This document shows positions 6,816-13,839 of a DNA stretch of 52,993 nt, piece after piece. The position numbers and the translations under genes are program-made. Below the pieces are notes generated by a model that was not told the DNA's origin, did no database searches, and saw only the letters and a program-made list of their open reading frames with translations. Numbering within the stretch: position 1 is the stretch's first letter; every line of letters begins with the position of its first letter. This DNA comes from Bacteroidales bacterium (lineage in GTDB: Bacteria; Bacteroidota; Bacteroidia; Bacteroidales; WRLA01): contig WRLA01000013.1 in assembly GCA_009777825.1 (NCBI GenBank), positions 1 through 52,993 of the forward strand, given 5' to 3'.

Positions 6816-9245
6816 TTATGAAACCGCCATTTTTTTAATCGCCCCAAATTCGCACTCCTCCACACACAATCCGCACTGCACACATTTTTCAATATCAATA
6901 GAATGCACTTCGTAAGGCGTGTATGGGATGGCGTCCACCGGACAGGCTTTGGCGCATTTGGTGCATCCGGTGCAGGCATCGTCAACGACATATTTCACCA
7001 TCGCCTTGCAGACGCCGGTGGGACAGACGCCCCGGATGTGTTCTTCGTACTCTTGCCGGAAATATTTGAGGGTGGTCAATACCGGATTGGGCGCCGTTTT
7101 GCCCAGACCGCACAATGCGGCTTTTTTGATGCTCACCGCCAACTGTTCAAGTTTTTCAATATCAGCCATTTCGGCTTTTCCCGATGTTATTTTGTCTAAG
7201 ATGTCGAGCATTCTCCTGATGCCGACGCGACAGAAGGTGCATTTTCCGCACGACTGCTCGCAGGAGAAGGTAAGAAAATAACGCGCCACGTCCACCATAC
7301 AATCTTTTTCGTTCAGCACGACCAATCCGCCGGAACCCATCATGGCGCCCATGCCGCTGAGCGCGTCGAAATCCACCGGGACATCGCACAGTTCAGCGGG
7401 GATACAGCCTCCCGACGGACCGCCCACCTGTACTGCTTTGAGTTTGGCGTCTCCCTCGACGCCGCCGCCGATTTTTTCGACGATGTGGTTGAGGGTCATG
7501 CCCATCGGCACCTCTATCAGTCCGCCGTACTTGACTTTTCCGGCAAGCGCGAATACCTTTGTCCCTTTGCTGCCCTGCGTTCCGATGGCGCGGTATTTCT
7601 CGTAACCGTTTTTGATGATAAACGGAATCTGGCTGAGCGTTTCCACATTGTTGACCAACGTCGGAAAGCCATGCAACCCTTTCTCTACGGGATAAGGCGG
7701 ACGCAGTTTTGGGAAACCGCGTTGTCCTTCGATGGAGGCGATGAGCGCTGTCTCTTCGCCGCAGACAAAAGCGCCGGCGCCTTCGTAAACCTCAATGTTG
7801 AACGAGAATCCGCTGTTGAGGATGTTGTCGCCGACGAGGTTGCGCTCTTTGCATATTTCGATGGCGGCGCGGATACGTGAGACCGCCAACGGGTATTCGG
7901 CGCGAATGTAAAAGATGCCGTTGGACGCTCCGGTGGCGTATCCGGCAATGGTCATCCCTTCGATGACGCGGAACGGGTACGACTCTAACAACATCCTATC
8001 CATGAACGCGCCCGGGTCGCCTTCGTCGCCGTTGCAGATGACGTATTTGACGGGACTTTCCGATTGCGCGATGATGTCCCATTTCCGTCCGGTCGGAAAG
8101 CCGCCGCCGCCTCTGCCGCGCAAGCCACTTTGGAGAATAGCCCCCCCAAGCCCCCCCGAAGGGGGGGATGTGCCTGTTCTCGCCGATTGCGAATTTTTAT
8201 CATCTGTGTAAATCTGTGCCATCTGTGTCATCTGTGTTCCCCTCTCATCTACTACTTTCCGTAGCGCGTCGAAACCGCCGTGTGCGCAGTATTCGTCTAT
8301 GTTGAGCGGGGTGAAGATGCCGTAGCCTTCGGTGGAGATGTGTAACTGGTTGGAAAGGAAACTGTTGATGATGTCGGTCCGCTCGTTTTCCGATTTCCAG
8401 ATGACGTTGTCCCACGTTGTGTCGGTGTGGAACGTGTCTAATTGCCCTAACAGGCTGTTTTTTAGCCGTTTGAGATACGATGCCGACTTGAAATGATGAT
8501 GCAGAATCTCTTTTATCTCGGCGGCTTTCACATTGGGATAGCGTACTACCGAGCCATCGGACTGAACAATGTCAATCAACGGTACTCTATTGCAGACGCC
8601 GACGCATCCCACCGGCTTGATGTGAACCTCAATCCCCAACTGACGTGAAGATTGCAACAACTCCTTATAGATGTCGCCCGACCCACTGGCAATACAACAG
8701 GAACCCATGCCCAGCCGGACTTCCCCGACAAGACGTTTCCGTTCGTTTTGCACATCGTCCTTGCTTTCTTCTTCGACCTGAGCGAGGAAGTCATCCACGA
8801 CGTCGCCGACTTTTCCGGGCTGGACGTGTCCGTAGATTTTCTCGTCAATCTGCACTACCGGCGCCAGCGTGCAGCAGCCGAGACAGGCGATTCTTTCGAT
8901 GGAGAAACGTTGGTCGGCGGTGGTGATGCTGTCATCTTCCATCTTCAGTTCGCGACGGAAGGCGTCGTAAACGTTTTCTGCGCCTTTGACGTGGCAGGCG
9001 GTGCCGGTGCAGACTTTTATCAGATGTTTCCCGTAAGGAATGTGCCGAAACTGGGAGTAAAACGTGGAGACGCTGATGAGTTGCGCACGGGTGATTTCCG
9101 TCGTTTCATAAACCCGCTCGATGGCGTCGTGCGGCAGATAACCGAAAGCGCTCTGCAAGGCTTGTAGCAAAGGGATGACGTCGCTTGGCTTGGAGCCGAT
9201 GCGTTGGATGATGGCGTCTGTTTGGGTTACGAAGTCGGTATTCAT
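6816..9245 (-). CDS. Fused NuoE-NuoF flavoprotein (HydC-HydB-like NADH/ferredoxin oxidoreductase)
   Basis: The product (809 residues from the ATG at 9245) fuses two diaphorase subunits that couple NAD(H) to ferredoxin, most often as part of an electron-bifurcating [FeFe] hydrogenase. Residues ~1-165 are a NuoE-type thioredoxin-like 2Fe-2S domain (CTGTACHV, CLGCC). Residues ~175-290 are a second 2Fe-2S domain (SCCIASGS, CVGVC). NuoF follows, with FMN loop GLRGRGGGGFPTG, GEETALIASIEG, and cluster cysteines SCGKCTFCRVG near residue 665. The end holds two 4Fe-4S motifs (CTGCTKCAKACP, CVQCGLCVEEC). The start is chosen because GGAGG lies five bases before it; a longer frame reaches 9320 only through the tail of the neighbouring transporter. 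Residues ~332-369 are repeat-derived. No hydrogenase catalytic subunit is in the window. Confidence 0.88.
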   Translation of the reverse strand: MNTDFVTQTDAIIQRIGSKPSDVIPLLQALQSAFGYLPHDAIERVYETTEITRAQLISVSTFYSQFRHIPYGKHLIKVCTGTACHVKGAENVYDAFRRELKMEDDSITTADQRFSIERIACLGCCTLAPVVQIDEKIYGHVQPGKVGDVVDDFLAQVEEESKDDVQNERKRLVGEVRLGMGSCCIASGSGDIYKELLQSSRQLGIEVHIKPVGCVGVCNRVPLIDIVQSDGSVVRYPNVKAAEIKEILHHHFKSASYLKRLKNSLLGQLDTFHTDTTWDNVIWKSENERTDIINSFLSNQLHISTEGYGIFTPLNIDEYCAHGGFDALRKVVDERGTQMTQMAQIYTDDKNSQSARTGTSPPSGGLGGAILQSGLRGRGGGGFPTGRKWDIIAQSESPVKYVICNGDEGDPGAFMDRMLLESYPFRVIEGMTIAGYATGASNGIFYIRAEYPLAVSRIRAAIEICKERNLVGDNILNSGFSFNIEVYEGAGAFVCGEETALIASIEGQRGFPKLRPPYPVEKGLHGFPTLVNNVETLSQIPFIIKNGYEKYRAIGTQGSKGTKVFALAGKVKYGGLIEVPMGMTLNHIVEKIGGGVEGDAKLKAVQVGGPSGGCIPAELCDVPVDFDALSGMGAMMGSGGLVVLNEKDCMVDVARYFLTFSCEQSCGKCTFCRVGIRRMLDILDKITSGKAEMADIEKLEQLAVSIKKAALCGLGKTAPNPVLTTLKYFRQEYEEHIRGVCPTGVCKAMVKYVVDDACTGCTKCAKACPVDAIPYTPYEVHSIDIEKCVQCGLCVEECEFGAIKKMAVS
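8138..8248 (-). repeat. In-frame repeat insertion inside the NuoF domain
   Basis: Two repeat families lie end to end. A GC-rich palindrome (8140-8170, C7-GAA-G7 core) encodes SPPSGGLGGA. An ACACAGAT-type repeat (8201-8240) encodes GTQMTQMAQIYTDD. Together they add about 25-30 residues just before GLRGRGGGGFP, where relatives have a short linker (established for NuoF/HydB). Frame is kept and no stop is created. Confidence 0.8.
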
Positions 9246-9288
9246 TTTTTCCTCCACAGTTGGTACGTATTCACGAAATTTTGCCACA
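9242..9288. repeat. 47-bp direct repeat, copy 1
   Basis: It matches 9641-9687 with one mismatch in 47. It duplicates the 3' end of the transporter gene (encoding NFVNTYQLWRKK-stop in that gene) and here supplies the GGAGG ribosome binding site and ATG context of the nuoE-nuoF gene. Confidence 0.9.
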
Positions 9289-9297
9289 AAAGTAATG

Positions 9298-9369
9298 CTA
9301 TTGTTTAAACAAATCGGCATGTGTGCCGGTGTTTGTAAAAAGCAGAACCAATTCCATTACGTGATACAT
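9298..9369 (-). pseudogene. Truncated YafQ/RelE-type toxin remnant
   Basis: The 23-codon frame reads MYHVMELVLLF then TNTGTHADLFKQ. Its end matches the C-terminus typical of YafQ/RelE-fold mRNA interferases (LxRTGSHxDLF pattern), while the ~65 preceding residues are missing. Its ATG overlaps the antitoxin stop as TGATG, the usual coupling in such modules. An internal deletion probably killed the toxin and kept the antitoxin. Confidence 0.6.
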
Positions 9370-12048: not shown

Positions 12049-13839
12049 TTAAAACACTCCCACGCAATAAATCCATGTATCCGTCTTAACCACAATTTTC
12101 CCATCCGTAAACGCCGGCGTGGCATACGTTTTTTCACTTGTTTCAAAGGCATTGATAAGGCTGAAATCGCTTTTTGCGGAGAAGATAAACATTTTCCCGT
12201 CGGTGTCGCTGAGATAGATTTTCCCTTCTGCGATGACGGGCGATGAGTAAAACTCGGTACCCAACTCCATTGTTTTCAGCAAGTCGCCGGTTTGGGCGTC
12301 GAAAGTCGCTACCACGCCGTATGAGGTTGCCACAAAGAGAAAATCTTTTGCCGCTACCGGACTGGAGACTTCGGGGAGGAGGTCGTTGTTTTTCCAGAGC
12401 GTGGAGCCGTCTGCCGCATTGATGGCTATCAGCGTGGCGTATTCGCTTCCGCCGTAAACAACGCCGTTGGCGGCGGCAGGACTTGAGCCGACTTCTCCCG
12501 TCATACACTCCACACGCCAATACTGTTCGCCGTTATTCGGGTTGTAAGAGGTGATGCTCGGCGTTCCCATCAATATCAGTTGCGGTTTGTTGTTGACGAT
12601 TGCGATGATGGGTGAACTCCATGAGATCTTGTCGGGACGCTCTTTCACCCAGCGTTGGTTGCCGGTTTCCAAGTCCAACGCCATAACTCTTGGCGCAGTG
12701 CGGTTGTCGTACTGTATAATCACCGAGTTGCCGAAGACGAGCGGCGAGGAGGCATATCCGTAGTGGTTGTCGGGGACGCCGATGTTTTTTGCCCACAGTT
12801 GTTTTCCCTCCATGTCGGCGCAGATGACATCGCCGGTAGCGAAGATGGCGCACACCTGTTTGCCGTTGGTTGCTACCGTTGAGGCTGCCAATCCGGTGTC
12901 GTCCGTTGTTTTCGGCATTTGGCTTGGCGAACCCGGAATGTTTTTAGCCGTCAGCCGCCATAACTCTTTCCCCGAACTTAGTTCGTAGCAGTATATCTCG
13001 CGGGCGTCGTCGTCGGCTCCGGAAAAGAAGACTCTGTTTCCGTTGATTACCGGCGAGTTATAGCCTTTACGCGGCGTCTTCACTTTCCACAGGATGTTTT
13101 TGCCCGATGACAAGTCCCACGAGGTCGGAACACTCTTTGCGCTGCTTATGCCAAGGGCGTTGTTGCCTCGGAAACCATTGTAAGCCCCCCCAAGCCCTCC
13201 TGAAGGGGGGGGTGTGGGGAGGGTATCGGTTTTTTCTTGTACAGATTGTAAAGCGGTGTTCGTCTCTGTGATTAGTTCGGATTGGTAATCTGTGCTGTCT
13301 TCTCGTACCGATTGTAAATCGGTGTGTGCGGAAATATCGGTGCGTGCGAGGTCTTCAACACCCCCCCCTTCGGGGGGGCTTGGGGGGGCTATATATGGCG
13401 AAGTCAACACGGCGAACACAATTCCGGCTGCTGCCAAAAAGCCTGCTGTCCAAACGACGTATTTTCTGGCTTTCGACTTAATCAGCCAGTCGTCCACGGG
13501 GTCAATATCCTTATCGGGAATCTCTTTGCTCTTGGAAAAATAAATCCGCAGGCTTATCACCAACACCGCAACCATAACCGCCAAAATGATGACGCCCACT
13601 CTTAATCTGTTGATACTGATGAAGTAGGCTTTCCGTGCCAGCAGGTCTAACTCACGGATTTGTTCCTGCAAGAACGGGTTGTCGCCGTATTCTTCGTTGG
13701 CTTGTTTGAGATTTTCGAGCGCTTCCGACCGGATGATGTCCGTGCCGCTCACCTGAAAATAATTGGTTATGAGCATGACGGAGAAAGCGACTGCGAAAAT
13801 CGCGGAGACGATGGCTATGTTTCTTACTGTGTGTTTCAT
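12049..13839 (-). CDS. Membrane-anchored PQQ-like beta-propeller protein
   Basis: The N-terminus has three transmembrane helices (residues ~7-27, 75-97, 125-145). From about residue 225 a PQQ-type propeller begins, with repeats such as GKNILWKVKTPRKGYNSPVI, GKELWRLTA, GKQLWAKNIG, GNQRWVKERP, GSTLWKNNDL and GDLLKTMELG. Such propellers serve as scaffolds or quinone-dependent enzymes; no catalytic cofactor ligands can be assigned here. Residues ~149-218, linking membrane part and propeller, consist almost wholly of dispersed-repeat sequence. The ATG overlaps the stop of the 4Fe-4S gene as ATGA, so the two are translationally coupled and probably form one complex. Confidence 0.85.
   Translation of the reverse strand: MKHTVRNIAIVSAIFAVAFSVMLITNYFQVSGTDIIRSEALENLKQANEEYGDNPFLQEQIRELDLLARKAYFISINRLRVGVIILAVMVAVLVISLRIYFSKSKEIPDKDIDPVDDWLIKSKARKYVVWTAGFLAAAGIVFAVLTSPYIAPPSPPEGGGVEDLARTDISAHTDLQSVREDSTDYQSELITETNTALQSVQEKTDTLPTPPPSGGLGGAYNGFRGNNALGISSAKSVPTSWDLSSGKNILWKVKTPRKGYNSPVINGNRVFFSGADDDAREIYCYELSSGKELWRLTAKNIPGSPSQMPKTTDDTGLAASTVATNGKQVCAIFATGDVICADMEGKQLWAKNIGVPDNHYGYASSPLVFGNSVIIQYDNRTAPRVMALDLETGNQRWVKERPDKISWSSPIIAIVNNKPQLILMGTPSITSYNPNNGEQYWRVECMTGEVGSSPAAANGVVYGGSEYATLIAINAADGSTLWKNNDLLPEVSSPVAAKDFLFVATSYGVVATFDAQTGDLLKTMELGTEFYSSPVIAEGKIYLSDTDGKMFIFSAKSDFSLINAFETSEKTYATPAFTDGKIVVKTDTWIYCVGVF
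13183..13392. repeat. Cluster of in-frame repeats inside the PQQ-propeller gene
   Basis: Two GC-rich palindromic copies in opposite orientation (about 13183-13216 and 13359-13391) flank a third family containing the perfect palindrome ACCGATTGTAAATCGGT at 13307-13323 and a degenerate copy near 13242. On the minus strand they encode PPSPPEGGG, TDLQSVRED, TALQSVQEK and PPPSGGLGGA. All keep the frame. Confidence 0.85.

Follow-up and report, generated by a model that had tools for sequence, protein, structure and literature searches.

The common view is that a homing endonuclease depends on an intron or an intein, which spares the host gene from damage. Short palindromes that lie in frame in genes of conserved proteins, and are translated through, have been described as the palindromic elements of Rickettsia and Wolbachia (RPE) and as intragenic GTAG/CGTC REPs, and their hosts include tRNA synthetases (PMC2229807, PMC3733652). 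The accessible parts of these two papers mention no nuclease inside the element. The ShiLan domain of phage methylases is an in-frame, stop-free, non-splicing insert whose endonuclease acts as a homing enzyme; the HNH nuclease is encoded in a different frame, and the host is a phage (PMC11855218). The DUF559 domain is assigned to the EDxHD homing family in the accessible part of a genome paper (PMC9403480).

The locus studied here comes from a Bacteroidales metagenome-assembled genome (2.48 Mb, 69% complete; GCA_009777825.1). The whole stretch of DNA analyzed, 52,993 nt of contig WRLA01000013.1, is called the window. The insert under study is the linker that joins the second membrane segment of the host protein to its PQQ_2 propeller (Table 1).

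Table 1. Host gene, linker insert and repeat copies in the window (window coordinates)
Feature	Position	Strand	Reading or basis
Host gene	12049..13839	-	596-aa membrane protein with C-terminal PQQ_2 beta-propeller; Pfam, orthologue alignment
Whole insert, 210 nt = 70 codons	13183..13392	-	Six-frame reading: one frame open
P palindrome copy 1, AGCCCCCCCAAGCCCTCCTGAAGGGGGGGGTGTGGGG	13183..13219	+	Reads TPPPSGGLGGA in the gene; consensus of 38 copies
P palindrome copy 2, inverted, AGCCCCCCCAAGCCCCCCCGAAGGGGGGGGTGTTGAA	13354..13390	-	Reads APPSPPEGGGV in the gene
Inverted arms, 33 nt	13183..13215 and 13358..13390		Complementarity 94%
Filler repeat Q copy 1	13234..13259	+	NTALQSVQEK in the gene
Filler repeat Q copy 2	13300..13325	+	7-bp-stem hairpin ACCGATT-GTA-AATCGGT; HTDLQSVRED in the gene
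Third P copy of the window	8139..8175	+	Lies within ORF 6819-9356 (minus), a NuoE/NuoF-type fusion gene, and keeps its frame

Repeat composition of the linker

The length of the insert is divisible by 3, and the insert is made up of two kinds of repeat, P and Q. P is a 37-nt GC-rich palindrome with the consensus AGCCCCCCCAAGCCCCCCCGAAGGGGGGGRTGTGMG (38 copies), present in the insert as two inverted arms. Q is a direct repeat of 26 nt, the two copies of which match at 88%. The original prediction described the linker as built almost entirely from three repeat copies. The composition from repeats was confirmed, but four copies were counted, two P arms and two 26-nt copies. The peptides listed at that time, TDLQSV/ALQSVQ and PPSPPEGGG against PPPSGGLGGA, agreed with the translation. 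The sequence ACCGATTGTAAATCGGT, which had been taken for a perfect palindrome, is instead a hairpin with 7-bp arms and a GTA loop, and its reverse complement differs from it at 3 positions. The DNA folding z-score of this Q hairpin was -3.9. One exact copy of it was present in the genome along with weak relatives, several of them in T9SS tail genes. Matches similar to CCCCCCAAGCCCCCC numbered 10 in the window, with 0.76 expected. P alone was open in 6/6 frames, and the full 210-nt insert was open in 1/6, which is the frame used.

Orthologues had been selected beforehand as the comparison for the linker. Ten orthologues from other families have linkers of 62 to 102 aa in the same alignment columns, compared with 79 aa here, and lack these repeats. 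The linker of the nearest orthologue (61% identical) is Thr/Glu-rich and unrelated. This indicates that the linker is old, while its content is new. A homologous linker in other genera, which had been named in advance as speaking against the prediction, was not found.

Distribution of P in the genome

The P core has more than 30 exact or near matches in the genome, with balanced strands, and 38 copies with at most 4 mismatches were examined. ORFs of at least 200 aa contained 32 of the 38 copies in frame, 15 in the forward and 17 in the reverse orientation, in agreement with the earlier expectation that both orientations are open genome-wide. An APPSPPEGGDV-like peptide is read from 14 of the 15 forward coding copies and a TSPPSGGLGGA-like peptide from 10 of the 17 reverse ones; the remaining copies use other phases, and all three phases are used by the reverse copies. 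The host genes include valS and, by Pfam, those of MurE, MurC, RuvC, the NuoE/NuoF fusion, a ketoacyl synthase, a C39/ABC exporter, HlyD proteins, a PD-(D/E)XK ATPase and an alpha/beta hydrolase. The third P copy of the window stands in the context ...SARTG-TSPPSGGLGGA-ILQSGLRGRGGGGFPTGRKW and is missing from four orthologues. An enrichment of P in genes beyond chance was rejected, since 84% of the copies were in ORFs of at least 200 aa compared with 88% of random window positions. At this rate, P neither seeks nor avoids genes, in contrast to typical REPs, which avoid them.

All six of the nearest P pairs that are less than 320 nt apart are arranged plus-then-minus. This fixed orientation is like that of the two ends of one unit. 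Many P copies are single and have no partner.

Nine T9SS sorting domains (G000 C1, C12, C16, C20, C33, C41, C43, C44) have an APPSPPEGGDV-like P peptide at their start, just ahead of VYPNPTSG. The T9SS tail cassette and P seem to travel together.

Empty sites in relatives

The inserts in valS (around 190 aa), murE (57 aa), murC, ruvC, nuoF, the fabF-like gene and the exporter were missing in relatives, and the flanking sequences aligned. This comparison covered two congeners and four other Bacteroidales (including G001, G002 and G025) wherever an orthologue was recovered. The strict P pattern was found only in the source genome, with no match in 148 relatives or in 394 other Bacteroidota genomes, around 540 in total. 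These results indicate that the P inserts are recent and in frame. Mobile palindromes that were inserted in frame very probably gave rise to the content of the window linker. The P inserts showed no target-site duplication.

The 57-aa insert of MurE (L021, G000 C9) is a composite of several repeat families, P among them, within one loop, which has about 5 residues in all five orthologues. Two HlyD paralogues (L156 and L165) share 92 to 95% identical DNA. At one site, P is present in one paralogue only and a TCTTACGGTCTTACGG-type repeat is present in the other, suggesting turnover of repeats within the same loop. At another site, the two paralogues differ by a different repeat. The junctions of the HlyD paralogues are not clean.

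The same copies were considered as domesticated linker modules, selected for the Pro/Gly-rich hinges that they encode, and not as selfish DNA. The dominant phase of the coding copies, 14/15 forward and 10/17 reverse, is in line with such selection, as is the peptide shared by the nine T9SS sorting domains. However, reverse copies use all three phases, the inserts occur in unrelated essential enzymes at sites that are empty even in congeners, and the T9SS copies appear to stem from the shuffling of a single cassette rather than from independent events. Domestication is very unlikely.

DUF559 between P copies in valS

The single DUF559 found in the source genome is located in frame inside valS, between P copies. 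A scan of a species-level genome collection for exact P returned four records, three of which were valS genes with P beside an in-frame domain at the same place. The authors of these three records placed them in Dysgonamonadaceae, Prevotellaceae and Paludibacter. The in-frame domain is DUF559 by Pfam, as tested on L100. With the source genome included, there are four genomes in which valS carries DUF559 between P copies. A 36-nt identical P was also observed at L103 (2746-2781), on a contig labelled Bacteroidales that looks GC-rich and unlike the other loci; misbinning or transfer is possible for this contig.

The DUF559 domain has kept its conserved motifs. The AlphaFold model of the L100 copy (pLDDT 74) matched 3hrl (Z 14.0), 3r3p, which is I-Bth0305I (Z 13.0, 26% identity), and 1cw0, which is Vsr (Z 10.9). 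The DUF559 partner of P is thus predicted by the model to have the Vsr/I-Bth0305I fold.

The association in valS could have arisen in another way, if P were an ordinary REP/MITE-like palindrome, comparable to the Rickettsia palindromic elements, that is spread by a transposase (e.g., Y1/RAYT) or by repair or gene conversion, with DUF559 as a passenger in a repeat-rich loop. Intragenic REPs and Rickettsia palindromic elements are already known, the P pairs look like inverted REP pairs, the same loops hold several unrelated repeat families, and the source genome has two Y1_Tnp genes. Moreover, a single DUF559 would have to serve 38 P copies. This ratio weighs against movement of P by DUF559, and P may accordingly spread by other means. 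On the other hand, the GTAG/CGTC tag is missing in 35 of the 38 P copies; such a tetranucleotide occurs in the other 3 and is conserved in none. One of the Y1 genes (L074) has no P in its 3.3-kb locus but has other palindromes, and a P lies about 1 kb from the second (L073), within a different gene. A Y1 transposase as the partner of P was rejected, as 0/2 Y1_Tnp genes were bracketed by P in this 69%-complete genome. The passenger explanation is considered possible but rather unlikely, also in view of the flanks of DUF559 in other genomes described below.

The gene at L074 (1380-2180) encodes a RAYT-like Y1 tyrosine transposase and is surrounded by AGGGCAACGCCCTA/CGCCCTGAAAGGGCG palindromes, which belong to a different repeat family of the source genome.

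DUF559 across Bacteroidota

DUF559 was present in 104 of 247 Bacteroidales genomes and in 222 of 395 Bacteroidota genomes. Many of the matches were in stop-free ORFs of about 1,000 to 1,480 aa, some of them in single-contig genomes. The proteins that contain DUF559 in frame are LeuRS, IleRS, ValRS, MetH, HsdR, HsdM, other methylases, DegT and PurL. In the synthetases, in MetH and in most HsdR proteins the insertion point recurs, and it is usually located directly ahead of a conserved motif: TTRPDT in LeuRS and ValRS, ADFIAEGVDQTRGW in IleRS, ATVKGDVHDIGKN in MetH and HTQGSGKS in most HsdR. In the synthetases and MetH (L135-L155, L205-L234), an upstream motif like [YW]xTANPxxYGLL was often observed between the palindrome linker and the domain.

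Conserved motifs of essential genes are the usual sites of inteins and group I introns. The position of the inserts next to such motifs in essential genes would suit cryptic introns or inteins that are removed before or after translation. However, the frame is open in every insert, which removal would not require. Neither the window insert nor any of eight DUF559-bearing loci gave an Rfam match, and a group I or group II intron is not supported at these sites. The Pfam scan of the hosts detected no intein (Hint) domain and revealed only host domains, DUF559 and the nuclease relative MTES_1575. Removal by splicing is very improbable.

Inverted repeats flanking DUF559 were compared with windows of the same geometry at other offsets in the same loci. 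This same-locus null replaced a cross-paired null, which was too strict because the loci share a palindrome family. The Mann-Whitney test gave P values of 2e-8 for 21 embedded domains, 3e-8 for 21 free-standing domains and 1e-8 for a second sample of 16 embedded domains. For the flanking palindromes, 4 of the 21 embedded domains were at the null level (P > 0.3). The palindromes that flank DUF559 are lineage-specific in sequence and share a common plan, consisting of a C-rich box, a short spacer and a C-stem/NAA-loop/G-stem. Such flanking by lineage-specific palindromes throughout the phylum is not expected of a domain carried along by chance. In the 247 genomes, the general palindrome pattern and DUF559 co-occurred (27/36 versus 77/211; P = 1.7e-5), a moderate association that is uncorrected for kinship and genome size.

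In a tree of 62 DUF559 domains, the domains embedded in synthetases, MetH and other hosts formed one supported group (100/91), with subgroups according to insertion site (97/93 for MetH, 95/87 for ValRS). The R-M-embedded and HsdR groups were separate. This pattern looks like that expected of homing lineages, and some of the insertions may have been inherited vertically.

Proposed origin of the linker

The repeats had originally been viewed as a property of this linker. They represent instead one member of a family of in-frame inserts that occurs throughout the genome and is tied to an endonuclease-bearing element. The explanation favored here, with modest confidence, is that the linker derives, as a short form lacking the nuclease, from a palindrome-bounded, in-frame, non-splicing element resembling a homing endonuclease. 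The outer inverted P pair would be the ends of a short mobile element, the full form of which carries a putative DUF559 endonuclease of the Vsr/EDxHD type, the valS insert being the only full form found in the source genome. The window linker would have kept the P ends without the nuclease, its middle being filled by the hairpin repeat Q. Having no stops in the frame used, the element would be read through as an extra, probably disordered, peptide (APPSPPEGG...GGLGGA) and would persist where a surface loop or a linker tolerates the insert. As for its movement, DUF559 may nick or cut a conserved target, and repair may copy in the palindrome-bounded DNA, as in homing. That P forms the ends of the DUF559 element and is moved by it is somewhat likely.

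The more general proposal is evenly balanced between acceptance and doubt. It holds that Bacteroidota harbor phylum-wide selfish elements in which DUF559 (EDxHD) has inverted GC-rich palindromes as its boundaries and homes into conserved genes (LeuRS, IleRS, ValRS, MetH, HsdR and others) in the host frame and without splicing; the palindromes would double as peptide linkers and would spawn nuclease-less copies like that of the window. The DUF559 nuclease appears to reside within essential enzymes and to share their reading frame, its palindromic ends serving as protein linkers. If confirmed, this would account for many odd inserts in Bacteroidota proteins and would provide a function for DUF559, a domain named as unknown in Pfam. 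It would also connect protein-coding palindromes with an enzyme that may be their partner, a question that dates from the description of the Rickettsia elements.

Comparison with known systems

Like RPE and intragenic REPs, P is a short palindrome that occurs in unrelated conserved genes, keeps their frame and is missing at the same sites in close relatives. It differs from them in the lack of the GTAG/CGTC tag, in sequence and taxon, and in its physical tie to DUF559. P is an RPE-like protein-coding palindromic repeat in kind only.

In the P family, as in REP/RAYT systems and REPINs, hairpin repeats form inverted pairs, there is a partner enzyme, and many copies lack that enzyme. The partner, however, appears to be DUF559 and not a Y1 tyrosine transposase, and the copies are mostly intragenic.

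EDxHD (Vsr-like) homing endonucleases of the I-Bth0305I type resemble DUF559 in fold, in the small nuclease domain, in sites at conserved motifs of essential genes and in site-specific lineages. Unlike them, DUF559 is neither borne by an intron or intein nor free-standing but is embedded in the host frame between palindrome-encoded linkers, as judged here from sequence and model. The ShiLan insert differs in that DUF559 is read in the host's own frame, and palindromic ends are not mentioned in the accessible main text on ShiLan (PMC11855218). Among publications mentioning DUF559 or synthetase inserts, represented mostly by titles and the openings of abstracts, no description of the palindrome-DUF559 arrangement was found. 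The window feature by itself belongs to a known kind, and the palindrome-bounded, in-frame DUF559 element is a new form.
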